64,000 bases of DNA from an uncultured Gemmiger sp. (lineage in GTDB: Bacteria > Bacillota > Clostridia > Oscillospirales > Ruminococcaceae): contig CALXAH010000006.1 in the NCBI GenBank assembly GCA_944386225.1, forward strand, positions 82,256 through 146,255. Reading direction: 5' to 3'. The position numbers were made by a program, and so were the translations under genes. Under the pieces are notes generated by a model that was not told the origin of the DNA, did not search any database, and was given only the letters and a program-made list of their open reading frames with translations. Within the stretch, counting starts at the first letter, position 1, and each line of letters begins with the position of its first letter. This document shows, piece by piece, positions 41,853 through 58,292 of the stretch.

Positions 41853-42299
41853 TTATTCACTGTCTTCCCAGGCGGGGTTCTGCAGGGATTGATACAGCCG
41901 GTTCAGATATTCCAGAAGCTGGCGGGCCTCCTCCTCGCTCAAAGCGGCGCGGAACCGGGCGTCCAGCTTTTCAAACCGGACAGCTACCTGTTCGGCGGCC
42001 AGGCGGCCGGATTCGGTCAGGGTGATCTTCTGGCAGCGCCGGCAGGCCGGGTCCTGGGTGCGGGTTACCAGCCCCGCTTCCACCAGCCGGTCCACGCTTC
42101 GGGAGAGGGTGGAAACGTCGATGCCGCATTCCTCGCCCAGTTCCCGCTGGGTACGGGGGCCGGTGCGCAGCAGACATTCCAGCAGCCGGGGCTGCCCCTG
42201 GCCCAGCGGAATGTCCAGCTGCAGAAACTCTTTGCGCAGCAGGCGCCGCTTTTCGTTCTCCAGCCTGGCAACGGCCAGACGCAGTTCACGGGGATCCAT
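41853..42299 (-). CDS. MarR-family regulator of the ABC exporter
   Basis: 148 residues, winged helix-turn-helix (TQRELGEECGIDVSTLSRSVDRLVEAGLV, about 52-80) and dimer helices at both ends; two cysteines in DPACRRCQ may sense oxidation. Last gene of a three-gene operon with a heterodimeric ABC exporter, 18 bases after the second ABC gene. The palindrome at the operon promoter (45943-45954) is its probable target. Confidence 0.88.
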   Translation of the reverse strand: MDPRELRLAVARLENEKRRLLRKEFLQLDIPLGQGQPRLLECLLRTGPRTQRELGEECGIDVSTLSRSVDRLVEAGLVTRTQDPACRRCQKITLTESGRLAAEQVAVRFEKLDARFRAALSEEEARQLLEYLNRLYQSLQNPAWEDSE

Positions 42300-42317: not shown

Positions 42318-44180
42318 TCAGGCCAGCTGGGACTGGCCGGTGTACAGCTGATAGTACCGCCCTTTCTGCTCCAGCAGGGCGGCGTGGTCACCGCGCTCGA
42401 TCACCTGGCCCTGTTCCACCACCAGGATGGCGTCGGCGTTGCGCACGGTGCTCAGCCGGTGGGCGATCACAAAGACGGTGCGGCCCTCCATCAGGCTGTC
42501 CAGCCCCTGCTCAATCAACTTTTCGGTGCGGGTATCAATGCTGCTGGTGGCCTCGTCCAGGATAAAGACCGGCGGTTTGGCCACCGCCGCCCGGGCAATG
42601 GCCAGCAGCTGGCGCTGGCCTTGGCTCAGGTTATCCCCGTCGCCGGACAGCTGGGTGTTGTACCCGTCCGGCAGCCGCCGGATGAAGGAATCCGCGTTGG
42701 CCAGCACCGCGGCCTGCCGCACCTCCTCATCGTTGGCGGAAAGCCGCCCGTACCGGATGTTATCCGCGATGGTTCCGGTGAACAGGTGGGTGTCCTGCAC
42801 AACAACCGACAGGCTGCGGCGCAGATCGTGCTTGCGGATGCGGCGCAGATCCAGCCCGTCGTAGGTGATGGTGCCGCTGTCAATCTCGTAAAAGCGGGTG
42901 ATCAGGTTGATGATGGTGGTTTTGCCCGCGCCGGTGCTGCCCACAAAGGCGATGGTCTCGCCCGGCCGGGCAAACAGGCTTACATCCCGCAGCACCGGTT
43001 TGCCGGGCACATAGCTGAAGGTCACATGGTCAAACCGTACGTCGCCTTTCAGCGGTACCAGTCGGCTGCCGCCTGCTTCGGGGCATTTCCAGGCGTAATG
43101 GCCGGTGCGCTCGGGCACTTCAGTCAGACTGCCGTCCGCTTCGGGGCGTACCCGCACCAGGGTGATATCCCCCTCGTCCACTTCCGGGGCCACATCCATC
43201 AGGTTGAAGATCCGCTCCGCGCCGGACAGGGCGCTCAGCAGGAAGTTGCTCTGCTGGGTCAGCTGGTTCAGCGGCATGGCGCTCTGCCGTACCAGTATCA
43301 GATAGGAACTCAGGCTGCCCAGATCGCTGTGCCCGGCCAGCACAAACAATCCGCCCACACAGGCTGCCACCGCGTAGTTGACGTAGGAAAGGCTCACCAC
43401 GGTGGGCACCATCATGCCCGCATAGCTGGCGGCGGAGGTGCCGGCCTTGCGCAGGGATTCGTTCAGCTGGCAGAACCGGGCAAAATCCTGGGGTTCGTGG
43501 TTGAACACCTTTTCCACCTTCTGTCCGGCCACCATCTCCTCCACAAAGCCGTTCAGTTCGCCCAGATGCTTCTGCTGCTGGGCAAAGTAGTGCTTGCTGC
43601 GCTTGCTGCTGTAGAGGATAAAGGCGGTCATTGCCGCCAGAAACGCGATCACAATCAGGGAAAGCCGGGCGTTCAGCACGATCAGCAGGGTGATGGTGCC
43701 GGTGACCATGCAGAAGCTCTGGATCAGCAGGGTGAAGCTGTTGTTCAGGGCGTCGGTCACGGTATCCACGTCGTTGGTGAAATGGCTCATCAGCTCCCCG
43801 TGGGTATGGGCGTCAAAATACTGCAGGGGCAGGCTCTGGACATGGGTGAACAGATCCTGCCGGATCCGGGCCACCACCTGCTGGGCGGTGCGCACCATCA
43901 GCTGGTTGTAGCCGAAGGTGGCCAGCGCGCCCACGGCATACATTACCGCCATGCCCAGAATGGCTCGGGTCAGCCCGGGCAGGTCGCCCGGGGCGATAAA
44001 GTTGTTGATGACCGGTTTGAGCAGATAGGTGCCCATCAGGTTGGCCAAACTGCTGATAATCACCAGCACCGCCACCACGGCCAGCGTCAGCCGGTGCATT
44101 CCCAGATAGCGGCACAGGCGGCGCAGCGCCTTTTTCAGGTCTTTGGGCCGCTTGTAGCTGCCCGGTGTACGCATTGCCAT
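42318..44180 (-). CDS. Heterodimeric ABC exporter, canonical half
   Basis: 620 residues: six-helix export domain (about 30-350) and nucleotide-binding domain with Walker A GSTGAGKTT, signature LSQGQRQLLAIARA and Walker B VFILDEATSSID (catalytic Glu intact). Between the domains is a segment of about 45 residues (RPEADGSLTEVPERTGHYAW). ATG at 44180 overlaps the stop of the partner gene (TAATG). Probably exports drugs, lipids or peptides. Confidence 0.9.
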   Translation of the reverse strand: MAMRTPGSYKRPKDLKKALRRLCRYLGMHRLTLAVVAVLVIISSLANLMGTYLLKPVINNFIAPGDLPGLTRAILGMAVMYAVGALATFGYNQLMVRTAQQVVARIRQDLFTHVQSLPLQYFDAHTHGELMSHFTNDVDTVTDALNNSFTLLIQSFCMVTGTITLLIVLNARLSLIVIAFLAAMTAFILYSSKRSKHYFAQQQKHLGELNGFVEEMVAGQKVEKVFNHEPQDFARFCQLNESLRKAGTSAASYAGMMVPTVVSLSYVNYAVAACVGGLFVLAGHSDLGSLSSYLILVRQSAMPLNQLTQQSNFLLSALSGAERIFNLMDVAPEVDEGDITLVRVRPEADGSLTEVPERTGHYAWKCPEAGGSRLVPLKGDVRFDHVTFSYVPGKPVLRDVSLFARPGETIAFVGSTGAGKTTIINLITRFYEIDSGTITYDGLDLRRIRKHDLRRSLSVVVQDTHLFTGTIADNIRYGRLSANDEEVRQAAVLANADSFIRRLPDGYNTQLSGDGDNLSQGQRQLLAIARAAVAKPPVFILDEATSSIDTRTEKLIEQGLDSLMEGRTVFVIAHRLSTVRNADAILVVEQGQVIERGDHAALLEQKGRYYQLYTGQSQLA

Positions 44181-45913
44181 TACAATCCCGCTCCTTCCTG
44201 CTGCGAATGGTAGATCTCCTGATAGATGCGGTTGTGCTCCAGCAGGCTCCAGTGGGTACCGACCTCGTTGATCCAGCCGTTGTCCAGAATCACAATCAGG
44301 TCCGCGTTCAGCACCGAGGAGATCCGCTGCGCAATGATGATCTTGGTGGTGTCGGGCAGGCATTGAGCCAGTCCGTCCCGGATTTTGGCCTCGGTGACCA
44401 TATCCACCGCACTGGTGGAGTCATCCAGAATCAGCACCTTGGGTTTTTTCAGGATGGCCCGGGCGATGCACAGGCGCTGTTTCTGGCCGCCGCTCACGTT
44501 TACGCCGCCCTGGCCCAAATCGGTGTCATAGCCGTTTTCCAGCCGCCCGATGAACTCGTCCACACAGGCGATGCGGCAGGCTTCTTCAATCTCGGCGTCG
44601 GTGGCGTCCGGCTTGCCCCAGCGCAGGTTGTCCCGCACCGTGCCGCTGAACAGGGTGTTCTTCTGCAGCACCATGGCGATGGCGTCCCGCAGATGGGCCA
44701 GCGGATATTCCCTCACCGGGCGCCCGTCCACCCGCACGGTGCCCTCGGTGGCGTCGTACAGCCGGGGAATCAGCTGCACCAGGGTGGATTTGGCCGAGCC
44801 GGTGCCGCCGATGATGCCCACGGTGGAACCGGCCGGGATGGTCAGGCTGATATCCCGCAGCACATACTCCGCCGCGCCTGCCCGGTACTGGAAGGAAACA
44901 TGGTCAAACTCGATGGCGCCGCGCTCCACCGTCACGTCTTTTGCGTCCTCCTCGGTGATGTCCAACGGCTCGTCGATCACTTCAAAGATGCGCTGGCCGC
45001 TGGCGATGGCCCGGGTCAGCAGCAGAAACACGCTGGAGAACATCATCAGGCTGTTCAGCACCTGCAGCACATAGCTGAGAAAACCGGTCAGCTTGCCGAT
45101 CTGCATGGTGCCGCCGATGATCATGCCGCCGCCGATCCACAGAATCGCCAGAATGGTGCTGTACATCACCAGCTGCATGGCGGGCATGTTCAACACCGCG
45201 ATCCGCATGGCCTGGCGGGAAACCTGGCACAGGTTGTCGTTTACCTGGCCGAACTTCTCAATCTCGTATTCCCCGCGCACATAGGCCTTGACGATCCGCA
45301 CGGCGGTCAGGTTTTCCTGCACGATCCGGTTCACCAGATCGATGGCCCGCTGCATCCGGGAATAGAGCGGCCGCACGTGCCGGATGATCTGGAACAGCAG
45401 GAATCCCAGCGTCGGGGCCGCCACCAGAAACACCAGCGCCAGACGGGCGTTGATCAGAAAGGACATGGACAGCGCGGTGACCATCATGATGGGGCTGCGG
45501 ATCCCCGGCCGGAGGCCGTTGATTACCGCGTTCTGGATGGTGGTCACGTCGCTGGTCAGCCTTGTCACCAGGGATTCGGTCTGGAACCGGTCCCGGTTGG
45601 CAAAGGAGAAGCTTTGGATTTTGGCGTACTCGGCTTTGCGCACCTCGGCGGCCAGACCATGGCCGCACAGCGCCGAGAACCGGGCGCTGCCCACGCCCAG
45701 CGCCATGGCAATCACCGAGCAGACGCACATCAGCGCCCCTTGCTGGAAGATATACGCCCGGTCGCCGTTGGCCACGCCCACGTCCACGATGTTCACCATG
45801 ATCATGGGGATCACCAGTTCAAAGACCGTTTCGGCAGCCACGCAGAACACAGCCAGCGCGGCCCACAGCCGGTATTTGTGCAGATAGCCCGCAAAACGGC
45901 GGATCAGCTGCAT
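44180..45913 (-). CDS. Heterodimeric ABC exporter, degenerate half
   Basis: 577 residues: six-helix export domain and nucleotide-binding domain with Walker A GGTGSAKST, signature VSGGQKQRLCIARA and Walker B VLILDDSTSAVD. The usual catalytic Glu after Walker B is Asp, the degenerate site typical of heterodimeric exporters such as BmrCD or TM287/288. First gene of the operon; AAAGGAG nine bases before ATG. Confidence 0.9.
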   Translation of the reverse strand: MQLIRRFAGYLHKYRLWAALAVFCVAAETVFELVIPMIMVNIVDVGVANGDRAYIFQQGALMCVCSVIAMALGVGSARFSALCGHGLAAEVRKAEYAKIQSFSFANRDRFQTESLVTRLTSDVTTIQNAVINGLRPGIRSPIMMVTALSMSFLINARLALVFLVAAPTLGFLLFQIIRHVRPLYSRMQRAIDLVNRIVQENLTAVRIVKAYVRGEYEIEKFGQVNDNLCQVSRQAMRIAVLNMPAMQLVMYSTILAILWIGGGMIIGGTMQIGKLTGFLSYVLQVLNSLMMFSSVFLLLTRAIASGQRIFEVIDEPLDITEEDAKDVTVERGAIEFDHVSFQYRAGAAEYVLRDISLTIPAGSTVGIIGGTGSAKSTLVQLIPRLYDATEGTVRVDGRPVREYPLAHLRDAIAMVLQKNTLFSGTVRDNLRWGKPDATDAEIEEACRIACVDEFIGRLENGYDTDLGQGGVNVSGGQKQRLCIARAILKKPKVLILDDSTSAVDMVTEAKIRDGLAQCLPDTTKIIIAQRISSVLNADLIVILDNGWINEVGTHWSLLEHNRIYQEIYHSQQEGAGL

Positions 45914-46002: not shown

Positions 46003-46032
46003 GGGGCGCGTCCCGTTTCCGGAACGCGCCCC
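46003..46032 (-). terminator. Terminator of the arg-car operon
   Basis: 8-bp arms 46003-46010 / 46025-46032 (GGGGCGCG/CGCGCCCC) with a small inner stem; minus strand tail TTCGTTTTG. Confidence 0.7.
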
Positions 46033-46046
46033 GCGCTTTTTCCCTC

Positions 46047-49000
46047 TTATACTTCCACAACACCCTCGTACACCAGCACGGCGTCGCCGGTGAGGGTGAC
46101 CCCTTCGTCTGTATAGCAGACTGTCACATCGCCGCCCCGCAGCTTGACGGTGATGGGCTCGCCCTTGGGGCAGTAGCCGTTTTCCACCGCCGCCACCACC
46201 GCCGCGCAGGCGCCGGTGCCGCAGGCCACGGTCTCCCCGTTGCCCCGCTCAAACACCCGCATCTTCAGGGTGTGATCGTTTACCACCCGTACAAATTCAG
46301 TGTTGACCCGCTGGGGGAACAGCGGCGCATGCTCGAACTGCGGGCCCACCGTTTCCAGATCCACCGCGTCCACCCGGGGGCAGAACACCACGCAATGGGG
46401 ATTGCCCATGGACACGCAGGTCACCCGCCAGTCCTGGCCGGCGATGGTCACCGGCACGTCCACTGCCGGATCAGCGGTCAGGGTGCAGGGCAGGTCGGCA
46501 GGATGCAGGCTGGCTTTGCCCATCTCCACCCGGGCGCTGCTTACCTTGCCGCCCCGCAGATAGAGATGCAGCTGTTTTATGCCGCTGGCGGTCTCCACCG
46601 TGATCTCCTCGCCGGTTACGTAGCCCCGGTCGCGAGCCAGTTTGGCCGCGCCCCGGATGCTGTTGCCGGCCATCCTGCCCTCGCTGCCGTCCTGGTTGAA
46701 GATCCGCATCCGGATGTCCGCAACCTCCGAGCGCTCCAGCAGCACCACGCCGTCGCCGCCGATGCCGTAGTTCCGGTGGCACAGCCGCACCGCCAGGGAT
46801 TCCGGGCAGGTGATGGCCCCGTCGAAGTTTTCAAAGAAGGTGTAGTCGTCTCCGGTGCCCTGCAGTTTGGCAAAGGGCAGGGCCTGCCGGGCGGTGCGCA
46901 TATGGTTCAGATCCACCAGCTCGGTGTTCTGCTGGGTGAACCGGCTGGCCAGAATATCCGCCAGCGCCCCGGCAGTGTCCAGCGAGGTAAAGCAGGGGAT
47001 GGACAAGGTCAGCGCGTGCCGGTGCAGGGTGATGTAGTCGGCGATCGATTCATCCTCCGCCGCGCCGGTGTAGACGATGGCGCCGATCCGGCCCTCGTCC
47101 AGCAGCCGCAGAACCTCATCTCCTTCCCCCATGGGCTGTACCCGCTGCACATCCACGCCCAGGGCCTCCACCGCGTCGGCGGTGTCCGGGGTGGCATACA
47201 GGCGGATGCCCAGGTCGTCCAGCTTCTTGGCCACCGTGATGACCTCGTACAGGTCGTGGCCGTCCACGCTCAGCAGCACGCCTGCGCCGCCCTCCAGCAG
47301 GGCCGGACGCACATCGATGCCTGCCGCGGCCAGCCCCTTGAACAGGGCTTCCCGCAGATCCTTGCCGATGCCCAGCACCTCGCCGGTGCTCTTCATCTCC
47401 GGGCCCAGGTAGGCGTTCACGTCGTTCAGCTTTTCAAAGCTGAACACAGGCACCTTGACCGCCACATAGGGCGGGGCGGGCCACAGCCCGTCGCCGAAGC
47501 CCAGTTCTTTCAGCGGCGTGCCGGTCATCACCTTGGCGGCCAGATCCACCATGGGAACCCCGGTCACCTTGCTGATGTAGGGCACCGTGCGGCTGGCCCG
47601 AGGGTTCACTTCGATAACATACAGTTCGTTTTTCCAGATCAGGTACTGGATGTTCACCAGCCCTTTGGTTCCAAGGGCCAGCGCCAGCTTGCGGGAGCAA
47701 TCCACCACCTGATCCATCATCATATCGCTCAGATTGTAGGGGGGATACACGGCGATGGAATCGCCGGAGTGCACCCCGGCCCGCTCGATATGCTGCATCA
47801 CGCCGGGGATCAGCACGTCGGTGCCGTCGCTGATCACGTCCACTTCCAGTTCGGTACCGGGCATGTACTGGTCGATCAGCACCGGGTTTTCGATACCCCC
47901 GGCCAGAATCCGCTGCATGTAGCGGCGCACCTCGTCGTCGCTGCGCACGATGCGCATGTTCTGGCCGCCGATCACGTAACTGGGCCGCAGCAGCACCGGA
48001 TACTCCAGCTGGCGGGCGGCGTCCAGCGCTTCTTCCAGCGTCAGGGCGCTCAGGCCCCGGGGCCGCCGGATGCCGAATTTTTCCAGCAGCGCGTCAAACC
48101 GCTCCCGGTCCTCGGCGGTGTCAATGCCCTCGGCGCTGGTGCCCAGGATGGGAATGCGCTTTTCGTCCAGATACCGGGTCAGCCGGATGGCGGTCTGGCC
48201 GCCGAAGGCCACCACCACACCCACCGGCTTTTCCACCGCGATGATGTCCATTACATCCTCCGGGCAGAGTGGCTCAAAGTAGAGCCGGTCGCCGGTGTCG
48301 TAGTCGGTGGAGACGGTTTCCGGGTTGTTGTTCACGATCACCACATCGTAGCCCAGTTCTTTCAGCGTCCAGACACAGTGCACCGAGGAATAGTCAAACT
48401 CGATGCCCTGGCCGATGCGGATCGGGCCGCTGCCCAGCACCAGCACGGTGGGGCGGCCGCTGCGGGCAAAGCTGCGGGCTTCGCAGTGTACGCCCCAGCC
48501 GCTGTAGAAATAGGGGGTGCGGGCGGAGAACTCGGCGGCGCAGGTGTCCACCATCTTGTAGATGGCGGACAGGTGTTCCGGCAGCGCCCCGCCGCTCAGG
48601 CGGGCCAGCGCCGCATCCGGATAGCCCAGTTCCTTGCCGGCCAGGTATTCCTCCCGGGTCAGGGTCTTGCCCGCGATGCTCGCTTCATAGGCCGCCAGCC
48701 GGGCCAGCCGGTGCAAAAACCACCGGTCAATGCGGGTAATGGCGAAAATCTCATCCACCGATACCCCGGCCTTGAGGGCTTCAAACACCGTGAACAGCCG
48801 CTTGTCGTCCATCCGGTGCAGCTGTTCGGTCACCGGGGTGTCGTCGGCGGGGGCGACGTTCAGGGTATCCAGGCCGATCTCCGCGCCCCGCACGGCTTTC
48901 ATCAGTGCCATCTCAAAGCTGGGCCCGATGGCCATAACCTCGCCGGTGGCCTTCATCTGGGTGCCCAGTTTGCGGCTGGCCCCGGCAAACTTGTCAAAGG

Positions 49001-50081
49001 GCCACTTGGGCATCTTGACCACCACGTAGTCCAGCGCGGGCTCAAAGCAGGCGCAGGTCTCGCCGGTCACGTCATTGGGAATCTCGTCCAGGGTGTAGCC
49101 AAGGGCAATGCGGGTGGTGATCTTGGCGATGGGATACCCAGTAGCCTTGGAGGCCAGCGCCGAGGAACGGCTTACCCGGGGGTTTACCTCGATCACCGCG
49201 TATTCAAAGCTGTCCGGATTCAGGGCGAACTGGCAGTTGCAGCCGCCCACAATGCCCAGCGCGCTGATAATGTTCAGCGAGGCCGAGCGCAGCATCTGAT
49301 ACTCCTTGTCGGACAGGGTCAGCGCCGGGGCCACCACAATGGAGTCGCCGGTATGTACTCCTACCGGGTCAAAGTTTTCCATGCTGCAGATGGCGATGAC
49401 ATTGCCGGCCGCGTCCCGCATGGTCTCAAACTCGATCTCTTTCCAGCCGTAGATGTACCGCTCCACCAGGATCTGGGTGATGGGGGAGGCGTCCAGCCCG
49501 GTGTGGGCCACCGCCCGCAGCTCCTCCGGCGTGTAGGCCACGCCGCCGCCGGTGCCGCCCAGAGTATAAGCGGGCCGTACAATTACCGGGTAGCCGATCC
49601 GGTCGGCCACCGCCAGCGCGGCGTCCACCGTTTCGGCGATGTCGCTGGGGATCACCGGCTCGCCGATGGCGGCCATGGTTTCCTTGAATTTTTCCCGGTC
49701 CTCGGCCTTTTCGATGGCTTCCACATTGCTGCCGATCAGCCGCACGCCCCGGCTTTCCAGAAAGCCTTCCCGGCCCAGCTGCATGGCGATGGTCAGGCCG
49801 GTCTGGCCGCCCAGCCCCGCCAGCAGGCAGTCGGGTTTTTCCTTGTCAATGATGCGCTTGACCGTTTCGGCGGTGAGCGGTTCCAGATAGATCTCGTCCG
49901 CCAGCGCCTTGTCGGTCATGATGGTGGCCGGGTTGGAGTTGACCAGCACCACGTTCACGCCTGCCTCTTTCAGTACCCGGCAGGCCTGGGCGCCGGCGTA
50001 GTCGAACTCCGCCGCCTGCCCGATCACGATCGGCCCGGAGCCGATCATCAGCACCTTGCGGATGCTTGTATCAAGTGGCAT
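46047..50081 (-). CDS. carB: Carbamoyl-phosphate synthase large subunit fused to a DapF-like domain
   Basis: 1344 residues in one uninterrupted frame. Residues 1-1060 are a complete CarB: two ATP-grasp halves (first motif GSGPIVIGQAAEFDYAG, second GSGPIRIGQGIEFDYSS, about 7 and 560), oligomerisation domain between them, and an MGS-like allosteric domain (about 935-1060). It makes carbamoyl phosphate for both arginine and pyrimidines with CarA. Residues 1065-1344 align with diaminopimelate epimerase: LPFAKLQGTGDDY, GIGGDGVVL, NQDGSEGRMAGNSIRG, SMGNPHCVVF, VNTEFV and ERGNGETVACGTGACAA. The first catalytic Cys (canonical MCGNG/QCGNG) is Ala; the second (ACGTGAC) is present. An internal ATG at 46901 could also start the DapF part alone, but its ribosome binding site is weak. 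Confidence 0.95.
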   Translation of the reverse strand: MPLDTSIRKVLMIGSGPIVIGQAAEFDYAGAQACRVLKEAGVNVVLVNSNPATIMTDKALADEIYLEPLTAETVKRIIDKEKPDCLLAGLGGQTGLTIAMQLGREGFLESRGVRLIGSNVEAIEKAEDREKFKETMAAIGEPVIPSDIAETVDAALAVADRIGYPVIVRPAYTLGGTGGGVAYTPEELRAVAHTGLDASPITQILVERYIYGWKEIEFETMRDAAGNVIAICSMENFDPVGVHTGDSIVVAPALTLSDKEYQMLRSASLNIISALGIVGGCNCQFALNPDSFEYAVIEVNPRVSRSSALASKATGYPIAKITTRIALGYTLDEIPNDVTGETCACFEPALDYVVVKMPKWPFDKFAGASRKLGTQMKATGEVMAIGPSFEMALMKAVRGAEIGLDTLNVAPADDTPVTEQLHRMDDKRLFTVFEALKAGVSVDEIFAITRIDRWFLHRLARLAAYEASIAGKTLTREEYLAGKELGYPDAALARLSGGALPEHLSAIYKMVDTCAAEFSARTPYFYSGWGVHCEARSFARSGRPTVLVLGSGPIRIGQGIEFDYSSVHCVWTLKELGYDVVIVNNNPETVSTDYDTGDRLYFEPLCPEDVMDIIAVEKPVGVVVAFGGQTAIRLTRYLDEKRIPILGTSAEGIDTAEDRERFDALLEKFGIRRPRGLSALTLEEALDAARQLEYPVLLRPSYVIGGQNMRIVRSDDEVRRYMQRILAGGIENPVLIDQYMPGTELEVDVISDGTDVLIPGVMQHIERAGVHSGDSIAVYPPYNLSDMMMDQVVDCSRKLALALGTKGLVNIQYLIWKNELYVIEVNPRASRTVPYISKVTGVPMVDLAAKVMTGTPLKELGFGDGLWPAPPYVAVKVPVFSFEKLNDVNAYLGPEMKSTGEVLGIGKDLREALFKGLAAAGIDVRPALLEGGAGVLLSVDGHDLYEVITVAKKLDDLGIRLYATPDTADAVEALGVDVQRVQPMGEGDEVLRLLDEGRIGAIVYTGAAEDESIADYITLHRHALTLSIPCFTSLDTAGALADILASRFTQQNTELVDLNHMRTARQALPFAKLQGTGDDYTFFENFDGAITCPESLAVRLCHRNYGIGGDGVVLLERSEVADIRMRIFNQDGSEGRMAGNSIRGAAKLARDRGYVTGEEITVETASGIKQLHLYLRGGKVSSARVEMGKASLHPADLPCTLTADPAVDVPVTIAGQDWRVTCVSMGNPHCVVFCPRVDAVDLETVGPQFEHAPLFPQRVNTEFVRVVNDHTLKMRVFERGNGETVACGTGACAAVVAAVENGYCPKGEPITVKLRGGDVTVCYTDEGVTLTGDAVLVYEGVVEV

Positions 50082-51144
50082 CGACCGACCCTCCCTCCAT
50101 CAGTTGAATGAACCGGTCAAACAGAAAACCGGTGTCCCGGGGGCCGGCACAGGCCTCCGGGTGGAACTGCACCGTAAAAGCGCGCAGCTGGGGATAGTCC
50201 AGCCCCTCGCAGGTGCCGTCGTTGGCGTTCACAAACCGCAGCCGCGCCCCGGGCACCGAGTCCGCCACCACCGCGTAGCCGTGGTTCTGGCTGGTGATGT
50301 AGGTGCGTCCGCCCGCAAGATCCCGGGCGGGCTGGTTGGCACCCCGGTGGCCGTATTTCAGCTTGACGGTGCGTCCGCCCGCCGCCAGGGCCAGCAGCTG
50401 GTGCCCCAGGCAGATGCCGAAGATGGGCAGTTTGCCCAGCAGCCGGGACAACTCCGCGATGCAGCCGGTGTTTTCCGCCGGGTCGCCGGGCCCGTTGGAG
50501 AGCAAAATCCCGTCCGCGCCCAGCGCCAGCACCTGTTCGGCGCTGGTACCGGCGGGCAGCACCGTTACCCGGCAGCCTCGTTTCTGCAGTTCCCGGGCGA
50601 TGTTGGCCTTGGCGCCGTAGTCCAGCAGGGCCACATGGTGGGTTTCCTCTCCCGCCGCGGGCAGGGTATAGGGGGCGGCGCAGGTGACCGAGGCCACCGC
50701 GCCCTCTACCCGGTACGCGGCCACATCCGCCAGGTCGGCGGGCGGGGCGGAGGTAATGATGGCGTTGGTCACGCCCTTTTCCCGGATGATGCGGGTGACT
50801 TCCCGGGTATCGATGCCGCAGATGCCCGGCACGCCCTTCGCTTTCAGGAAGGCGTCCAGGTCATACTGGCTGCGGAAGTTGGAGGGGGTGGGGCACCAGT
50901 GGCGCACCACATAGCCCTTTACCCGGCATTCGCCCTCAAAATCCGCCTCGATCACCCCGTAGTTGCCGATGAGCGGAAAGGTCTGCAGCACGATCTGCCC
51001 GGCATAGCTGGGGTCGGTGAGGGTTTCCAGATAGCCGCACATGTTGGTGGTAAACACCAGTTCGCCCACCGTGTCGCCCTCCGCGCCGAACCGCTGCCCC
51101 TCAAAGGCGGTGCCGTCCTGCAGCACAAGCCATGCCTTTTCCAT
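50071..51144 (-). CDS. carA: Carbamoyl-phosphate synthase small subunit
   Basis: 357 residues. N-terminal CPSase domain and class I glutamine amidotransferase with the nucleophile in IFGICLGHQLL and His/Glu in VQFHPEACAGP. Supplies ammonia from glutamine to CarB. ATG 51144 preferred over a GTG three codons upstream (GTGAGGTG spacing). Overlaps carB by 11 bases. Sits within the arginine operon, so one synthase probably serves both pathways. Confidence 0.96.
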   Translation of the reverse strand: MEKAWLVLQDGTAFEGQRFGAEGDTVGELVFTTNMCGYLETLTDPSYAGQIVLQTFPLIGNYGVIEADFEGECRVKGYVVRHWCPTPSNFRSQYDLDAFLKAKGVPGICGIDTREVTRIIREKGVTNAIITSAPPADLADVAAYRVEGAVASVTCAAPYTLPAAGEETHHVALLDYGAKANIARELQKRGCRVTVLPAGTSAEQVLALGADGILLSNGPGDPAENTGCIAELSRLLGKLPIFGICLGHQLLALAAGGRTVKLKYGHRGANQPARDLAGGRTYITSQNHGYAVVADSVPGARLRFVNANDGTCEGLDYPQLRAFTVQFHPEACAGPRDTGFLFDRFIQLMEGGSVDAT

Positions 51145-51154
51145 TGCTGTCACC

Positions 51155-52066
51155 TCACTGTGCGTTTCCCATGCACTTCACCAGCACCGCTTTCTGGGCG
51201 TGCAGGCGGTTCTCGGCCTGTTCAAAGATCTCGTCCGCGTGCTGCTCAAACACCTCGGCGGTGATCTCCTCCTCCCGGTGGGCGGGCAGGCAGTGCAGCA
51301 CCATCGCGTCGGGCTTGGCCACCGCCATGTTGGCGGCGTTCACCTGGTAGGCGGCGAATACCTTGCGGCGCTCCTCCGCCTCGGCCTCCTGACCCATGGA
51401 GGCCCACACATCGGTGTACACCACGTCCGCGTCCTTCATGGCCTCCTGCACATCTTCGGTGCACAGGAAGCTGCCGTTCTCCGCCGCCCACTGCATCAGG
51501 GCCGCGTCCGGCTCATGCCCGGCCGGGCAGGCAATCGCCACCTGCATGCCCATGGTGATGCCGCCGGCAATCAGGCTGTTGGCCATGTTGTTGCCGTCGC
51601 CCACAAAGCAGAGCTTCTTGCCTGCCAGGGCGCCCTTGCGTTCCCGGATGGTCATCAGGTCGGCCAGCACCTGGCAGGGATGGCAGTAGTCGGTCAGGCC
51701 GTTGATGATGGGGATGGAGCCGTACTTGGCCAGATCCTCCACCTCCTGCTGGGCAAAGGTACGGATCATGATGCCGTCCAGGTAGCGGCTCAGCACCCGG
51801 GCGGTGTCCTCCACCGGTTCGCCCCGGCCGATCTGCAGATCCCGGCTGCTCAGAAACAGGGCCGAACCGCCCAGATCGTACATGCCCACTTCAAAGGACA
51901 CCCGGGTGCGGGTGGAGGATTTGGAGAAGATCATGCCCAGGGTCTTGCCCTTGAGCAGGTGATGCTCCACGCCGTTTTTCTTTTCGTATTTCAGCTGATC
52001 CGCAATGTTCAGGATTTCGTTGATCTCCGCGGCGGACAGATCCGCCAGTTTCAGCAAATGTTTCAT
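51155..52066 (-). CDS. argF: Ornithine carbamoyltransferase
   Basis: 303 residues; ornithine plus carbamoyl phosphate to citrulline. Carbamoyl-phosphate motif SSTRTRVSFE (about 47-56), HPCQVLADL, and ornithine loop VLHCLPAHREEE. Its start overlaps the argD stop (ATGA) and it lies 10 bases before carA, which makes its co-substrate. Confidence 0.97.
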   Translation of the reverse strand: MKHLLKLADLSAAEINEILNIADQLKYEKKNGVEHHLLKGKTLGMIFSKSSTRTRVSFEVGMYDLGGSALFLSSRDLQIGRGEPVEDTARVLSRYLDGIMIRTFAQQEVEDLAKYGSIPIINGLTDYCHPCQVLADLMTIRERKGALAGKKLCFVGDGNNMANSLIAGGITMGMQVAIACPAGHEPDAALMQWAAENGSFLCTEDVQEAMKDADVVYTDVWASMGQEAEAEERRKVFAAYQVNAANMAVAKPDAMVLHCLPAHREEEITAEVFEQHADEIFEQAENRLHAQKAVLVKCMGNAQ

Positions 52067-53229
52067 TCTGCACACACCTCTTTGAGAATTTGTATTGCCT
52101 GCGCCAGCAGGTCCTGGGGAATGTTCAGCGGCGGAAGCAGCCGCACCTTGTTCTTGGCCCGCAGGGGCAGAACGCCCCGTGCCTGACAGGCGGCCAGTAC
52201 CTCGCCTGCATCCTTTTCGGTCTCAATGCCCAGCATCAGGCCGGTTCCGGTCACGCTCTTGATGCCCGGCGCGCCTTCCAGCTGGCTGCGTACCCAGTCG
52301 CCCTTGGCAGCCACCTGGGCCAGGAAGGCTTCGTCCAGCCGTTCCAGGATGGTCAGCGCCCCGGCGCAGCACACCGGGTTGCCGCCGAAGGTGCTGCCGT
52401 GGCTGCCCGGCACCAGAACACCGGCAGCCTTGCCGCCCAGGATGGCTGCGCCCAGCGGCAGCCCGCCGCCCAGGCCCTTGGCGGTGGTTACCACGTCGGG
52501 CTGCACACCGCTGTGCATATAGCCGAACAGCTTGCCGGTGCGGCCGTTTCCGGTCTGCACCTCGTCCGCCATGAGCAGCAGGCCCCGTTCCTGCGCCAGC
52601 TTGGCCAGCCCCTGGATAAAGGCGGGCTCCAGCGGGATGACCCCGCCTTCGCCCTGGATGGCTTCAAACAGGATGGCACAGCAGGGATTCGAGTCCAGCT
52701 GCTTTTCCACATCGGCCAGGTTGCCCGGCTCGGCGTAGACAAAGCCCGGTGTCAGGGGCAGGAAATCTTTGTGGAATACCTCCTGCCCGGTGGCGGCCAG
52801 GGTGGCCAGAGTGCGGCCGTGGAAGCTGCCTTTCATGGTCAGGATGGTGGTGTGCGCCGGCCCCAGGTGCTCGGCCCCGTATTTGCGGGCCACCTTGATG
52901 GCACATTCGTTGACCTCCGCGCCGGAGTTGCAGAAGAACACCTGCTGCATGCCGGTACGTTCACAGAGCGTGGCGGCCAGTTTGGCGCAGGGGCCGGTGT
53001 AGTAGAGGTTGGAGGTGTGCTGCAGTTTGGCGGCCTGTTCACAGACTGCTTTCTGCCACACCTCGTCGCAGGCGCCGAAGGCGTTTACCCCGATGCCGCT
53101 GCCCAGGTCGATGTATTCCTTGCCGTCCTCATCGGTCAGCACCGACCCGTGCCCGCCGGTCAGCACCACCGGGAACCGGGCGTAGGTGGGGGCTATATAG
53201 GTCTGGTCCAGCTGTTTAATGTTGTCCAT
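52063..53229 (-). CDS. argD: Acetylornithine aminotransferase
   Basis: 388 residues, class III PLP aminotransferase. PLP lysine in VVTTAKGLGGGLPLGA (about 242), LMADEVQTGNGRTG upstream of it, and NSGAEVNECAIKVARKYG at the phosphate site. Makes N-acetylornithine; may also act in lysine synthesis as N-succinyl-DAP aminotransferase. Overlaps argB by 14 bases. Confidence 0.96.
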   Translation of the reverse strand: MDNIKQLDQTYIAPTYARFPVVLTGGHGSVLTDEDGKEYIDLGSGIGVNAFGACDEVWQKAVCEQAAKLQHTSNLYYTGPCAKLAATLCERTGMQQVFFCNSGAEVNECAIKVARKYGAEHLGPAHTTILTMKGSFHGRTLATLAATGQEVFHKDFLPLTPGFVYAEPGNLADVEKQLDSNPCCAILFEAIQGEGGVIPLEPAFIQGLAKLAQERGLLLMADEVQTGNGRTGKLFGYMHSGVQPDVVTTAKGLGGGLPLGAAILGGKAAGVLVPGSHGSTFGGNPVCCAGALTILERLDEAFLAQVAAKGDWVRSQLEGAPGIKSVTGTGLMLGIETEKDAGEVLAACQARGVLPLRAKNKVRLLPPLNIPQDLLAQAIQILKEVCAE

Positions 53230-54091
53230 AGCTGCCTCCCTGGATAAACATGGTGCCGATGCCCTCGTCGGTGAGGGTCTCGATCAGGATGGCATGGGGA
53301 ATGCGCCCGTCGATGATGAATACCCGGTTCACGCCCCGCCGGATGGCCTCGATGCAGCAGTCCACCTTGGGGATCATGCCGCCGGAGATGATGCCCTCCC
53401 GCATCAGCTGGGGCGCTTCGCTCACCGTGATCTGGCTGATCAGGGTGGCGGGATCGTCCTTGTCCCGCAGAATGCCGCTGGTATCGGTCATGGAGATCAG
53501 GCTCTCGGCCTTGAGGGCGGCGGCGATGCGGGCGGCGGCGGTGTCCGCGTTGATGTTGTACACATTGCCCTCTGTGTCGCAGCCTACGGTGGAAATCACC
53601 GGGATGTAGCCCTTTTCCAGCACATCCAGCACCGGCTCCACATTGATCTGGGTGATCTCGCCCACGTAGCCCAGTTCCTCTCGCAGGGGCCTGGCCTGGA
53701 TCAGGTAGCCGTCCATGCCGCTCAGGCCGATGGCCTTGCCGCCCTTGCTCTGCAAAAGGCTTACCAGGCTCTTGTTGATCTTGCCTGCCAGCACCATCTG
53801 CACCAGCTCGGCGGTTTCCTTGTCGGTCACCCGCAACCCGTCCACAAACTTGCTTTCCTTGCCCACCCGGCGCATCAGGTCGCTGATTTCCGGGCCGCCG
53901 CCGTGCACCAGCACAACCTTCACCCCGATCAGGCTCAGCAGCACCAGGTCACCCATAACGGCCTGTTTCAGCTCTTCGTTGATCATGGCGTTGCCGCCGT
54001 ATTTCACCACCAGGATCTTGCCGGTGTATTTCTGTATGTAGGGCAGGGCGTGGATCAGCACCTGTGCCCGCTGTGCGTTGCTCAGTTCCAT
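53216..54091 (-). CDS. argB: Acetylglutamate kinase
   Basis: 291 residues, amino-acid kinase fold: VVKYGGNAM near the N-terminus, VHGGGPEIS, and NINADTAAARIAAAL. N-terminal helix of about 20 residues (MELSNAQRAQVLIHALPYIQ) is of the kind found in arginine-sensitive, hexameric enzymes. AGGAGG upstream of ATG. Second step of the pathway. Confidence 0.96.
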   Translation of the reverse strand: MELSNAQRAQVLIHALPYIQKYTGKILVVKYGGNAMINEELKQAVMGDLVLLSLIGVKVVLVHGGGPEISDLMRRVGKESKFVDGLRVTDKETAELVQMVLAGKINKSLVSLLQSKGGKAIGLSGMDGYLIQARPLREELGYVGEITQINVEPVLDVLEKGYIPVISTVGCDTEGNVYNINADTAAARIAAALKAESLISMTDTSGILRDKDDPATLISQITVSEAPQLMREGIISGGMIPKVDCCIEAIRRGVNRVFIIDGRIPHAILIETLTDEGIGTMFIQGGSYGQH

Positions 54092-54106: not shown

Positions 54107-55321
54107 TCAGGTGCGGTAGTCGCCGTTGATCTTTACGTAGTCGTAGGTCAGATCGCAGCCCCAGGCGGTGCTTTCCGCTTCGCCCATGTGCAGATCTACC
54201 TGAATCTCAATCTCATTCTTGAGCAGGATCTCCTTGGCGTACTCCTCGGAGAAGGGGATGCCTGCCCCGTCCTTGCAGACCTCGATCCGGCCCGCTGCGC
54301 TGGCAAAGGCCACATCTACTTTCTGCACGTCTACAGCCGCGCCGCTGTAGCCGATGGCGCAGAGCACCCGGCCCCAGTTGGCGTCCGCCCCGAACATGGC
54401 CGCCTTGACCAGAGAGGAGCAGATCACCGCCTTGGCCACGGTGCGGGCGGTGGCCAGATCGGCCGCGCCCTGCACCCGGCACTCCAGCAGGCGGGTGGCG
54501 CCTTCACCGTCGCCGGCCAGCATCCGGCACAGCTGCATGGTTACGGTGTTCAGCGCTTTCATGAAAACGGCAAACTCCTCGTTTTCCTCGGTTACGGGGG
54601 CGTTGCCGGCCAGTCCGTTGGCCAGGATGACCACCATGTCGTTGGTGGAGGTGTCCCCGTCCACGCTGACCATGTTGAAGGTGCTCTGCACGTCGGTGGA
54701 CAGGGCCTTGTGCAGCAGTTCGCTGCTGATGGCCGCGTCGGTGGTCAGGAACACCAGCATGGTGGCCATATTGGGATGGATCATGCCGCTGCCCTTGGCG
54801 ATGCCGCCCAGATGGCAGGTCTTGCCGCCCAGGGGGAACTCCACGGCGGCCTCCTTGGCGATGGTGTCGGTGGTCATGATGGCCATGGCGGCGTGCAGGC
54901 TGTTGTCATAGCCCAGATCCGCGGCCAGGGGCGCCATGCCGGCCGCAATGGGGGCCAGGTTCAGCGGCTGGCCGATCACGCCGGTGGAGGCCACCGCCAC
55001 GTCCTCGGGGGCGATGCCCAGCTGGTCAGCGGCCAGCTGGCACATCTCTTTGGCGATCTGCGGGCCATCCGCGTTGCAGGTGTTGGCGTTGCCGCTGTTG
55101 CACAGAATGGCCTGGGCCTTGCCGTCGGCCAGATGCTCTTTGGTTACCAGAAGCGGCGCACCCTTGACCAGGTTGGTGGTGTAAACCGCCGCTGCGCTGG
55201 CGGGGCAGTCGCTGACAATCAGTGCCAGATCCCGTTTGGTCTGGTTCTTCCGGATGCCGCAGTGCACGCCCGCAGCCTTGAATCCCTGTGCGGCGCACAC
55301 GCCGCCTGTGATCTGTTTCAT
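54107..55321 (-). CDS. argJ: Bifunctional ornithine acetyltransferase/acetylglutamate synthase
   Basis: 404 residues. Self-cleavage site in KGSGMIHPNMATMLVF, with Thr as the new N-terminal nucleophile (about 182). Recycles the acetyl group from acetylornithine to glutamate, so no argA/argE is needed. GAGGGAG before ATG; 15 bases upstream of argB. Confidence 0.96.
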   Translation of the reverse strand: MKQITGGVCAAQGFKAAGVHCGIRKNQTKRDLALIVSDCPASAAAVYTTNLVKGAPLLVTKEHLADGKAQAILCNSGNANTCNADGPQIAKEMCQLAADQLGIAPEDVAVASTGVIGQPLNLAPIAAGMAPLAADLGYDNSLHAAMAIMTTDTIAKEAAVEFPLGGKTCHLGGIAKGSGMIHPNMATMLVFLTTDAAISSELLHKALSTDVQSTFNMVSVDGDTSTNDMVVILANGLAGNAPVTEENEEFAVFMKALNTVTMQLCRMLAGDGEGATRLLECRVQGAADLATARTVAKAVICSSLVKAAMFGADANWGRVLCAIGYSGAAVDVQKVDVAFASAAGRIEVCKDGAGIPFSEEYAKEILLKNEIEIQVDLHMGEAESTAWGCDLTYDYVKINGDYRT

Positions 55322-55384: not shown

Positions 55385-56314
55385 TCAGGCAAGATGCAGC
55401 CCGGTTTCGGGCGGCAGGCCCAGCACCAGATTCATGCATTCCACCGCAGCGCCGCTGGCCCCCTTGCCCAGATTGTCGTACCGGGCCATCAGCAGGATGC
55501 GGTCTTCGTTGCCGCCCACCGAGATCTCCATGCGGTCCAGCCCGCTCAGTGCCGCGGCGGAGAAGAAGCCTTCCTCCCCGGTTTCGGGCTGCCAGTGAAC
55601 CACCGGCCCGGTGTAGAGCGATGCGTACAGCTGCCGCACATCCTCCGGTGTGCCCTTCAGCTGGCTGCGGAACAGCGGCACCGTCACCGCCATACCGCTG
55701 TAAAAGTCCGCCACGATGGGGCAGAACACAGGCGCGTTTTCCAGCCCGGTCACCGCCTGCATCTCGGGCAGATGCTTGTGGGTCTGGCCCAGGCCGTACT
55801 GGCGGGGCGCGTCCAGCAGCCCGCTTCGGTCATCGGATTCGTACTGGGCGATCATGGATTTGCCGCCGCCGCTGTATCCGGTTACCGAGTGGCAGGTGAG
55901 CAGCGCGTCCTTATCCAGCAGCCCGGCCTGCACCAGCGGCTGCACCAGGGCAATGAACCCGCTGGCATGGCAGCCTGGTACGGCGATGCGCTTGCCGGTT
56001 TTGATTTTGTCGGCAAAGGCGGGCCCCAGTTCCGGAAATCCGTACGCCCAGCCCGGTGCGGTCCGGTGGGCGGTGGAGGCATCCAGAATCACCGCCTGGC
56101 TGCCCTCCGCCAGTGCCGCCGCTTCCCGGGCGGCTGCGTCGGGCAGGCAGAGAAACGCGATGTCACATTCATGCAGAGCCTTTTGACGGGCCTGGGGGTC
56201 TTTTCGCTGTTCCTCCGGCAGGTTCAGCAGCTGAATGTCATCCCGCTGCTCCAGACGCTGGCGGATCTGCAGACCGGTGGTACCGGCGCTGCCGTCAATA
56301 AAAATCGTATGCAT
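55385..56314 (-). CDS. argC: N-acetyl-gamma-glutamyl-phosphate reductase, type 2
   Basis: 309 residues, the shorter type 2 form. NADP loop IDGSAGTTGLQI, catalytic Cys in AVPGCHASGFIAL (about 113), and THKHLPEMQ. Reduces acetylglutamyl phosphate to the semialdehyde. First gene of the operon, under the ArgR-type control region at 56371-56423. Confidence 0.95.
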   Translation of the reverse strand: MHTIFIDGSAGTTGLQIRQRLEQRDDIQLLNLPEEQRKDPQARQKALHECDIAFLCLPDAAAREAAALAEGSQAVILDASTAHRTAPGWAYGFPELGPAFADKIKTGKRIAVPGCHASGFIALVQPLVQAGLLDKDALLTCHSVTGYSGGGKSMIAQYESDDRSGLLDAPRQYGLGQTHKHLPEMQAVTGLENAPVFCPIVADFYSGMAVTVPLFRSQLKGTPEDVRQLYASLYTGPVVHWQPETGEEGFFSAAALSGLDRMEISVGGNEDRILLMARYDNLGKGASGAAVECMNLVLGLPPETGLHLA

Positions 56315-56650: not shown

Positions 56651-56727
56651 GGCCCGGTAGTTCAGTTGGTTAGAACGCTAGCCTGTCACGCTAGAGGTCG
56701 TGAGTTCGAGCCTCATCCGGGTCGCCA
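56651..56727 (+). tRNA. tRNA-Asp (GUC)
   Basis: 77 nt with encoded CCA. Acceptor GGCCCGG/CCGGGTC, anticodon stem-loop CTAGC-CTGTCAC-GCTAG, T-loop GTTCGAGCC. Confidence 0.95.
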
Positions 56728-56730
56728 CCT

Positions 56731-56806
56731 GCTGTTATAGCTCAGTCGGCAGAGCACATCCTTGGTAAGGATGAGGTCGTGCGTTCGAATCGCATTAACA
56801 GCTCCA
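56731..56806 (+). tRNA. tRNA-Thr (GGU), likely attachment site of the mobile element
   Basis: 76 nt with encoded CCA. Acceptor GCTGTTA/TAACAGC, anticodon stem-loop CATCC-TTGGTAA-GGATG, T-loop GTTCGAATC. An integrase gene ends 127 bases downstream, so the 3' half of this tRNA or its terminator is the probable attB/attL. Confidence 0.93.
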
Positions 56807-56812
56807 GTGGAT

Positions 56813-56855
56813 AGCCCCGCAAAACCGCTTCACAGCAGGTTTTGCGGGGCTTTTT
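56813..56855 (+). terminator. Terminator of the tRNA-Asp/Thr operon
   Basis: Perfect 14-bp arms AGCCCCGCAAAACC (from 56813) and its complement (to 56851), then TTTTTG. Confidence 0.85.
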
Positions 56856-56888
56856 GTTATTCATTCTCAATTATCAAAATCTGCCTCA

Positions 56889-56906
56889 AAAAGCCTGGAA
56901 AAGGCT
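56889..56906 (-). terminator. Short terminator-like hairpin after the integrase
   Basis: AGCCT/AGGCT stem with a TTTTT run on the minus strand, about 30 bases past the integrase stop. Confidence 0.45.
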
Positions 56907-56907
56907 C

Positions 56908-56930
56908 ATAAACTAACAGATAAACTAACA
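56908..56930. repeat. Two direct repeats beside the integrase
   Basis: ATAAACTAACA occurs at 56908-56918 and 56920-56930, a 12-base period. Placement between tRNA-Thr and the integrase fits arm-type integrase binding sites. Confidence 0.5.
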
Positions 56931-56932
56931 AA

Positions 56933-58159
56933 TCAAGCCTTCTTTTTCATCTCATCCCGCAAATATTCCAGGTCCAGGTCATCCGCGTACTTGTCCACAG
57001 CTACGTCATAGCGGCTGTATCCGGCAATCTTGGTCAGGGCCTCCGGCGCCACGCCGCCCTGGATGCTGTCAGCCACGAAGGTGTGGCGGGAACGGTGGGG
57101 GGTCAGGGCGTTTCTGCCGGCAGCATCCTGGTAGCGGATCCCCAGCTCCTCCAGTTTGGGATAGAACCGCCGGCGCCGGAAGGTATCATCGCTCAAGGGG
57201 CGGCCCTGCTCCTCGATAAGATAGGTCCCGGCCCGCTCATAGAAGTAGCGCACATAGGGCAGGATGCTGTCCAGGATGGGTACCACCCGGTTGCGGCCCG
57301 CCTCGGTCTTGCTGCCGCCGGTCAGGATCCGGCGCTCCAGGTCCACCGCCTGTTTCGGAAGGCGCAGCAGCTCGTTCAGCCGCATGCCGGTCCCCAGGTA
57401 GATCAGGATGATCTTCACGGTAGGATCATCATCATGCCGGCGCAGCAGCTCTTTCTCCTCCGGTGTGAAATTCCGCTTTGCCCGGGTGTGCTGCGGGGGC
57501 AGCACCAGCACTCCGGACAGATTCTCCTTTGTGATCTGCAGACGGATCATCTCGTTGTACAGGTGCGAGACCAGCTGCTTGATCCGGTTTTTGCCGTCAT
57601 ATCCCAGTGGCTGCGGCGGCTGGGCGGCCAGCGCCTCGTACCTTTTTCGCTCGGAGGGCTTCATCCGTGCCAGTTCGGCGGCTGTGCGGGCCTTGTAGCG
57701 CGTTTGAACGGTGGCGGTGTCCAGTATCTCCTGGAATTCGAAAACGCCCACAGAGAGCGCCCTGCGGCCCGCCAGGGGGGCCAGGCGCGGCCAGGCGGAG
57801 AGAAGCCCTTCCCGGCCTTTGTCCGACAGCTTGTTCCAGGCAGGGGAGCGGCGGAATGAGAGCCACACCTGCTCCAAGGTGTATTTGCTCCGGTCGGCGG
57901 GTAGCTGGCCAGCGTTGAAGGCGTCCAGCGCCTCCACCGCCTCGCCAGAGCTGGCGTAGGTGCCCAGGATCGCCCCGCTGCTCGCGGCGGCCACCCAGGG
58001 TCTGGCCCGGTTGCCGGAAAGTTGATAGACCGAGCCGCTGCCCTTCGCCCGCCGGCGTCGCCGGCGCTGGGGCGGGGGAGAAGCGCCTAGGCGTTTACCG
58101 CAGAAAAGGCAAAAGCCGGAGCCGTCGGGGATCTCCTTACGGCATCGGGGACAGAACAT
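56933..58159 (-). CDS. Tyrosine recombinase (integrase) with N-terminal zinc ribbon
   Basis: 408 residues from ATG 58159, chosen for GGGAGGTG five bases upstream and because the protein then begins with a zinc ribbon (MFCPRCRKEIPDGSGFCLFC, two CxxC pairs). Arg/Lys-rich linker, SAM-like core-binding domain (about 110-230), and catalytic domain with GTGMRLNELLRL (first Arg), HRSRHTF (H-x-x-R), and the nucleophile in AVDKYAD. Integrates the element next to tRNA-Thr. The stop lies at the element's left end. Confidence 0.92.
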   Translation of the reverse strand: MFCPRCRKEIPDGSGFCLFCGKRLGASPPPQRRRRRRAKGSGSVYQLSGNRARPWVAAASSGAILGTYASSGEAVEALDAFNAGQLPADRSKYTLEQVWLSFRRSPAWNKLSDKGREGLLSAWPRLAPLAGRRALSVGVFEFQEILDTATVQTRYKARTAAELARMKPSERKRYEALAAQPPQPLGYDGKNRIKQLVSHLYNEMIRLQITKENLSGVLVLPPQHTRAKRNFTPEEKELLRRHDDDPTVKIILIYLGTGMRLNELLRLPKQAVDLERRILTGGSKTEAGRNRVVPILDSILPYVRYFYERAGTYLIEEQGRPLSDDTFRRRRFYPKLEELGIRYQDAAGRNALTPHRSRHTFVADSIQGGVAPEALTKIAGYSRYDVAVDKYADDLDLEYLRDEMKKKA

Positions 58160-58181
58160 AAAAACACCTCCCAGGCACACT

Positions 58182-58211
58182 TTGACAAGCCCGCCCGGAA
58201 GGTGGTATAAT
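58182..58211 (+). promoter_or_regulatory. Promoter divergent from the integrase
   Basis: TTGACA (58182-58187), 18-base spacer, TATAAT (58206-58211). It drives no open reading frame; see the RNA at 58218. Confidence 0.7.
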
Positions 58212-58217
58212 TTCGCT

Positions 58218-58292
58218 GTGAGGACGGGGTTATACCTTCGGGTAAGCCTGTTCTGCTGACGCCCTGCCGGTTGCCGCCGGCGGGGCGTTTTT
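58218..58292 (+). ncRNA. Candidate structured small RNA of about 75 nt
   Basis: Starts about seven bases after a consensus promoter and ends at a strong terminator. Hairpin 1 at 58228-58248 closes on a C(TTCG)G tetraloop with 8 pairs and one bulged A; the terminator stem is 12 bp (58259-58270 / 58277-58288) followed by TTTTT. No start codon with a ribosome binding site lies inside. Not recognised as a known family; antisense to the untranslated region upstream of the integrase. Confidence 0.55.

Follow-up and report, generated by a model that had tools for sequence, protein, structure and literature searches.

A carbamoyl-phosphate synthase large subunit fused to a diaminopimelate epimerase-like domain without its first catalytic cysteine in an arginine operon of an uncultured Gemmiger sp.

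Results

The carB::dapF gene

The analysed window, a stretch of 64,000 nucleotides from an uncultured Gemmiger sp. (GCA_944386225.1, contig CALXAH010000006.1, positions 82,256 to 146,255 of the forward strand), carries an arginine operon of the order argC-argJ-argB-argD-argF-carA-carB::dapF. Its last gene, carB::dapF, starts with ATG and encodes 1344 amino acids with no internal stops: the large subunit of carbamoyl-phosphate synthase (CPSase), CarB, continued in frame by a domain with the fold of the diaminopimelate (DAP) epimerase DapF (Table 1). A full-length CarB was recognised by the profiles NF003671 (1409.6 bits, cut-off 599, residues 1-1047) and TIGR01369 (1372.5 bits), the small-subunit gene carA adjoins the fused gene, and the DapF profile TIGR00652 matched residues 1070-1342 with 245 bits (curated cut-off 114.65). 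The first-pass annotation of this locus had proposed a fusion of 1344 residues in one frame with the extra domain right behind the allosteric MGS domain, and it was correct on both points, PF02142 covering residues 947-1032. Beyond that annotation, we found that the first catalytic Cys of the DapF domain is missing and that the nucleotide site of the MGS domain is altered.

The same frame, of 1350 codons, is stop-free in two congeneric genomes (G008 and G127), whose DapF domains are 98% and 95% identical to that of the window. A sequencing error that removed a stop near position 46900, which the first-pass annotation had named as a threat to the fusion, was ruled out by these congeners and by the same frame in dozens of genera; the other threat, two separate genes in independent genomes, was not borne out in the congeners, which have one frame. 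The ratio of nonsynonymous to synonymous substitution rates (dN/dS) of the DapF domain between the window and each congener is 0.065, far under the value expected of a functionless read-through. A separate DapF start inside the linker was considered and rejected. None of 103 fused genes has a Shine-Dalgarno-like sequence ahead of the linker Met/Leu, compared with 542/4047 control sites that do, and the codon is neither ATG nor TTG in 23 of the 103, so a separately translated DapF is unlikely.

Catalytic residues and DAP pocket

The window domain does not have both catalytic Cys residues of a DapF: it reads MAGN in place of MCGN at the first and retains the second. In DapF of C. glutamicum, either Cys-to-Ala change almost abolishes activity, according to the accessible part of the report (PMC5296763; this and the other papers are cited here from such parts). 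The window domain is thus very unlikely to be a DAP epimerase. All nine residues that contact the ligand in C. glutamicum DapF with D,L-DAP (listed in PMC5296763 and placed by motif, the C. glutamicum sequence itself being unaligned) are nevertheless present in the window domain. They were all kept in 46 of the 48 fused rows with a broken Cys pair in the genome-search set, which was unselected for these motifs. The second Cys was also kept in 46 of the 48, being lost in G410 (Ser) and G427, and the first was replaced by Ala (32), Gly (9), Ser (5) or Phe (1). Retention of the second Cys and of N64 is quoted from this set because the patterns used to find further loci, ERG[NS]GETxAC and MRxFNxDGSE, favour copies with these residues.

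Mean conservation in the broken rows was 0.995 for the contact columns vs 0.945 for the other columns fixed in intact fusions; 17 of 52 non-contact columns fixed in two-Cys fusions fell below 95%. Across eight pairs, dN/dS of the Cys-lost domain was 0.02-0.26; the fused domain is under purifying selection after Cys loss. In an AlphaFold2 (AF2) model of the MGS and DapF parts (mean predicted local distance difference test, pLDDT, 89.8) the domains themselves were confident. The top 17 Foldseek matches of the model in the PDB were DapFs (TMt 0.91 to 9mro), and 3-hydroxyproline dehydratases were also among the fold matches.

Distribution and history of the fusion

The first-pass annotation had proposed to list the lineages with the fusion, and it proved widespread in Clostridia, elsewhere often with both Cys and partly beside dapL. 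Of 197 family genomes, at least 43 carry it, among them G037 (truncated at a contig end), G039 (CarB frame split) and G014 (TAG stop inside its Cys-lost fused copy); no DapF match was obtained in 51 of the 197 with the profile at E ≤ 0.001. Frames of about 1350 codons outside the family are numerous among the matches listed for 245 genomes of the order. From these, 40 genomes were hand-picked, one per genus, from 18 other families, and an MGS sequence was found upstream of the domain in 40/40. A search of 118 genomes of the class showed additional frames of about 1350 codons outside the order, judged by frame length alone. Fusion records not titled as metagenome-assembled genomes (MAGs) include Ruminococcus sp. 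FC2018 (L057) and Neglectibacter sp. X58 (L108). Three frames of 820, 988 and 548 amino acids (G072, G110 and G054) were rejected as fusions, their N-terminal extra part not being protein-like and CarB lying elsewhere, and were counted as stand-alone.

A tree of 139 DapF domains was built by a quick method, leaving out identical rows, G014 (also L157) for its stop, and L082 and L104 for broken frames. One clade, with a Shimodaira-Hasegawa-like approximate likelihood ratio test (SH-aLRT) value of 99, held 97 of the 100 fused rows, and three were unresolved. The CarB-DapF fusion is old. Loss of the first Cys takes a minimum of nine changes on this tree, although the starred branches force just two. 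The losses comprise a clade of 46 rows to which the window's genus belongs (support 92) and some eight scattered cases. The fusion and its parts belong to known families; no report of a CarB-DapF fusion or of its Cys-lost state was found in the literature searched, which left most subscription papers, preprints and UniProt-type entries outside.

Several unusual arrangements were observed. One genome (G036) carries two distinct carB::dapF fusions (C38 and C21; L149 and L150), neither of which has lost a catalytic Cys. In G414 (C11:310908-312777) the fused gene is immediately followed by a stand-alone dapF; both tandem copies have the first Cys, and Cys loss in the fused one could plausibly start from such a pair. 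L080 likewise has a fused and a stand-alone dapF in one locus. A fused gene inside the clostridial clade comes from a record titled Treponema sp. MAG (L079), by transfer or wrong binning. A frame of 1512 amino acids (L036:5317-9852) following argC-J-B-D-F-like frames joins the CarA small-subunit CPSase domain (PF00988) in frame with CarB::DapF; no glutamine amidotransferase domain was found in this chain by a profile scan of L036 alone, so that it is possibly a triple fusion that lacks an amidotransferase of its own. Four genomes of one genus, G241, G273, G297 and G324, have similar frames of 1503-1514 codons, and L036 may be the G241 genome.

Two states of the fused domain

Among 106 fused rows, which represent 103 distinct sequences, 48 have the first Cys and 58 have lost it; it is present in 39/39 stand-alone DapF rows. 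Row counts, here and for dapL, arg genes and MGS below, are not genome counts: the collections overlap (3 identical-domain pairs among 145 rows) and further records may be one genome. Genomes were counted as broken if either Cys of the fused copy was lost, which gave 19 broken and 24 intact genomes in the family and 30 and 10 in the 40-genome set. A second DapF was found in 36 of 49 broken genomes (13/19 and 23/30 in the two sets) vs 2 of 34 intact ones (0/24 and 2/10), with Fisher p=7e-7 for the family and p=0.002 for the 40-genome set; these are raw counts and not independent events. Second copies in the 40-genome set were counted by profile, not by Cys motifs. The counts take in the contig-cut fusions G335 and G316, G410 as broken, and G036 as intact without a stand-alone DapF (it entered the contact analysis twice, and G014 was excluded there). 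Weak or partial homologues below the cut-off in G031, G039, G136 and G163, those of G031 and G039 without Cys motifs, were not counted, and the second DapF of G159 is cut by a contig end with the first Cys beyond the visible part.

Either a second DapF or DAP dehydrogenase (Ddh) was present in 47/49 broken vs 19/34 intact genomes. Thirteen broken genomes had no second DapF, and Ddh was found in 11 of them (4/6 in the family, 7/7 in the 40-genome set); in the broken G039, 64% complete, the profiles found neither. The remaining 15 intact genomes showed no other DapF or Ddh by profiles (G128 and G049 among them are 70-75% complete), so the fused domain is the only recognised meso-DAP route there.

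Among loci with room, dapL lies directly downstream of 18/47 two-Cys fusions vs 0/52 Cys-lost ones; in the other two-Cys loci it was elsewhere in the locus in 9 and not seen in 20. The gene was identified by similarity to the FC2018 copy, itself matching TIGR03542 with 491 bits. LL-DAP, the product of DapL, is the substrate of DapF. The two-Cys fusion is probably a working CarB-DapF bifunctional enzyme.

MGS nucleotide site and arginine genes

We take the nucleotide-site positions of the E. coli MGS domain to be K954, K993, N1015 and T1017 (the numbers that were searched for had no match in the review PMC6245113). The residues aligned with them in the window are L, P, Y and G, so this nucleotide site is not conserved; both Thr (T974 and T977) are kept. 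In two-Cys fusions the K954 position is K in 48/48, the N1015 position S or C in 48/48 and the T1017 position S in 47/48; the K993 position is mostly K by eye. With 'altered' defined as no S, N or C at the N1015 position, the MGS was altered in 45/57 Cys-lost rows vs 0/48 two-Cys rows. Arginine genes lie near 30 of the 45 Cys-lost fusions with an altered MGS. They were not seen near the 12 Cys-lost fusions with a canonical MGS or the 48 two-Cys fusions, which is weak evidence given the shortness of many loci: carB has 2 kb or more of visible upstream sequence in 18/48 two-Cys and 24/58 Cys-lost loci, and 1.3 kb or more in 43 and 45.

Operon and genome context

A different contig of the window genome (99.8% complete) encodes a second DapF, which is stand-alone and has both Cys (TIGR00652, 211 bits); this settles the question of a separate complete dapF raised by the first-pass annotation; Ddh is also present. 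A second, unfused CarB, whose MGS has ISTSAKGR, lies beside pyrE and pyrK. B. subtilis is described as having two specialised CPSases (PMC6245113). Because of two such CPSases in the genome and the location in the arg operon, the fused CarB looks, by analogy, like the arginine copy.

Table 1. Features of the carB::dapF locus (positions in the window)
Feature	Position	Strand	Basis and remarks
Terminator-like hairpin directly 3' of carB::dapF	46003..46032	-	1 found vs 1.0 expected in shuffles; weak alone
carB::dapF, CarB and DapF-fold domain, 1344 aa	46047..50081	-	Open reading frame, profile matches
DapF-fold domain, residues 1070-1342	46056..46874	-	TIGR00652, PF01678, Foldseek
Codon of Cys1287, second catalytic Cys, kept	46221..46223	-	Alignments
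Ala1138 codon, aligned with the first catalytic Cys (C73 in E. coli, C83 in C. glutamicum DapF)	46668..46670	-	Alignments
Linker, residues 1048-1069, contains NTELVDLNHMR	46875..46940	-	Low pLDDT in model; no ribosome-binding-like site
CarB part, residues 1-1047	46941..50081	-	NF003671 and TIGR01369
MGS (allosteric) domain, residues 947-1032	46986..47243	-	PF02142, alignments; nucleotide-site positions altered vs E. coli and two-Cys fusions
carA, 11-nt overlap with carB start	50071..51153	-	PF00988 and PF00117
argF-type carbamoyltransferase	51155..52075	-	PF02729/PF00185; name argF from arg-operon place
argD	52063..53229	-	TIGR00707
argB-type amino-acid kinase	53216..54091	-	PF00696; name argB from arg-operon place
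argJ	54107..55321	-	TIGR00120
argC	55385..56314	-	TIGR01851

Behind the arg operon lie a promoter-like site (45985-45957), two ABC-transporter-like open reading frames (42318-45913; the second one profiled) and a gene for a MarR-type regulator (41853-42299). The stretch 56651-58330, of lower GC content (0.54), contains tRNA-Asp and tRNA-Thr and then an open reading frame (56933-58330, minus strand) that we take by eye to encode a tyrosine recombinase, possibly of an integrated element.

Discussion

The explanation that accounts best for these results, to which we give not quite an even chance, is that the window protein would be the large subunit of an arginine-specific CPSase with a pseudo-DapF domain that may bind DAP or a similar amino acid and tune or stabilise the CPSase. 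A carB gene would have been joined once, or very few times, to a working dapF, and many lineages would have retained both Cys in the fused domain, in some as the only recognised meso-DAP route. In the window lineage the gene would have become part of the arg operon, with the second DapF and Ddh taking over DAP synthesis; the first catalytic Cys would have changed to Ala and the MGS nucleotide site would have been altered, the domain being retained for another role. The pseudo-DapF would bind DAP or a similar L-amino acid without turnover, as expected because the contacts are intact and the first Cys is gone. The two halves of C. glutamicum DapF close on ligand binding (PMC5296763), and this open/closed movement might be passed to the adjacent MGS and CarB, the domain acting as a replacement effector site. 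The specific version in which the pseudo-DapF would be a sensor of LL- or meso-DAP (or lysine/ornithine), replacing the UMP/IMP site and setting CPSase activity, we consider doubtful.

Known systems resemble the window protein in part. It has the fold, length, DAP contacts and second Cys of DapF (TIGR00652; PDB 9mro, 3ejx, 2otn, 5m47), from which it differs by Ala at the first Cys, Asp at Asn11, the fusion to CarB and the place in an arg operon. All CarB domains including MGS and the carA directly upstream are shared with CarB of E. coli (1bxr) and others, but the protein has about 280 extra C-terminal residues and changed MGS nucleotide-site positions. Bacillus subtilis and G. stearothermophilus likewise have two specialised CPSases, one in an arg operon; the accessible part of PMC6245113 mentions no DapF domain for their arginine CPSase, whereas the window protein has one. 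A precedent for a dead DapF regulating another enzyme is E. coli DapF(C73&217A), which is catalytically dead and still binds and activates RppH (PMC4227774); unlike the window domain, it is separate from its unrelated partner and lost its Cys by mutation rather than naturally. The O-ureidoserine racemase (7vdy) and the diaminobutyrate (Dab) racemase PddB (PMC8225329) combine the DapF fold with other amino-acid ligands, but both are racemases, PddB uses two Cys, and neither is described as fused in the parts of the sources available.

Several observations weigh against the regulatory pseudo-DapF. Asn11, which contacts the reactive alpha-amino group of DAP according to the accessible literature, is Asp1078 in the window and Asp in 11/48 broken rows. 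The advantage of the contact columns is modest (8 vs 52 columns, p=0.025; non-Gly, p=0.012), which leaves room for a purely structural role, and dN/dS of the domain was above that of the attached CarB in 8/8 Cys-lost pairs. The MGS-DapF orientation was not fixed in the AF2 model (predicted TM-score, pTM, 0.69; low-confidence linker), so the model does not decide between sensor and scaffold. The broken genome G041, 94% complete, has neither a second DapF nor Ddh, and the intact G414 and G255 do have a second DapF. The association of Cys loss with a second DapF gave seven phylogenetically independent pairs on all branches and one on supported branches (G014 excluded), with no significant sign test in this underpowered comparison. 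The MGS is still canonical in 12/57 Cys-lost rows, which limits the replacement-effector-site idea to the other 45 at most, and the unfused CarB of the window genome also lacks Lys at the K954 position (Gln there). The guess of the first-pass annotation, an effector sensor or scaffold, was fair in that it fits the retained DAP-contact residues; ligand binding and regulation of CPSase by the domain are what we infer from the sequence.

The main rival, possible if unlikely, is a structural scaffold: a dimerising DapF domain would hold or stabilise the CPSase oligomer, catalysis and ligand being irrelevant in Cys-lost lineages. Purifying selection that persists after Cys loss is consistent with it, as is an aromatic residue (Y or F) in 47/48 broken, 33/35 intact and 32/39 stand-alone rows at the position that we take to be E. 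coli DapF Y268 (a Y268A mutant structure is among the Foldseek matches). E. coli DapF was dimeric by gel filtration (PMC4227774). A scaffold, however, would need none of N64, N157, N190, E208, R209 and Cys217, and the contact pocket is kept in nearly all broken rows, slightly better than other fixed columns.

It is improbable that the domain is a one-Cys enzyme that uses Cys1287 for a new reaction of an amino acid, such as elimination, dehydration or one-sided exchange. In proline racemases, a Cys-to-Thr change accompanies trans-3-hydroxyproline dehydratases; 3-hydroxyproline dehydratases appear among the fold matches and the second Cys is mostly retained, but the variable residue replacing the first Cys is unlike a new catalytic residue, and the neighbours, ordinary arginine-path genes, hint at no substrate. 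Bifunctionality, likely for two-Cys fusions given the genomes without other DapF or Ddh and the adjacent dapL, is highly improbable for the window domain, with Ala for Cys73, Asp for Asn11, another two-Cys DapF and Ddh in the genome, and an equivalent C. glutamicum mutant that is almost inactive (PMC5296763). A functionless neutral leftover or chance read-through, for which the relaxed non-contact columns, the dN/dS above CarB and the stop in G014 could speak, is scarcely credible in the face of the low dN/dS vs congeners and a frame preserved over dozens of genera after Cys loss.

CarB is a standard example of an allosteric enzyme. In these fusions a second enzyme is attached at its allosteric end, and in some lineages catalysis appears disabled with the ligand contacts kept and the old nucleotide site altered, which suggests that the fused pseudo-DapF is a former enzyme reused as a regulatory or structural part. 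Two-Cys, Cys-lost and MGS-altered fusions form a natural series that could serve to test, stepwise, how an enzyme is turned into a regulatory domain. For annotation they are a warning, as many DapF-profile matches in these genomes sit on CarB without the catalytic Cys. By record titles, many of the fusion-bearing Clostridia are from animal guts. Should DAP indeed be sensed by the domain, cell-wall/lysine metabolism would be wired directly to arginine metabolism, and arginine synthesis would track aspartate-family and peptidoglycan supply across a large share of the Clostridia.

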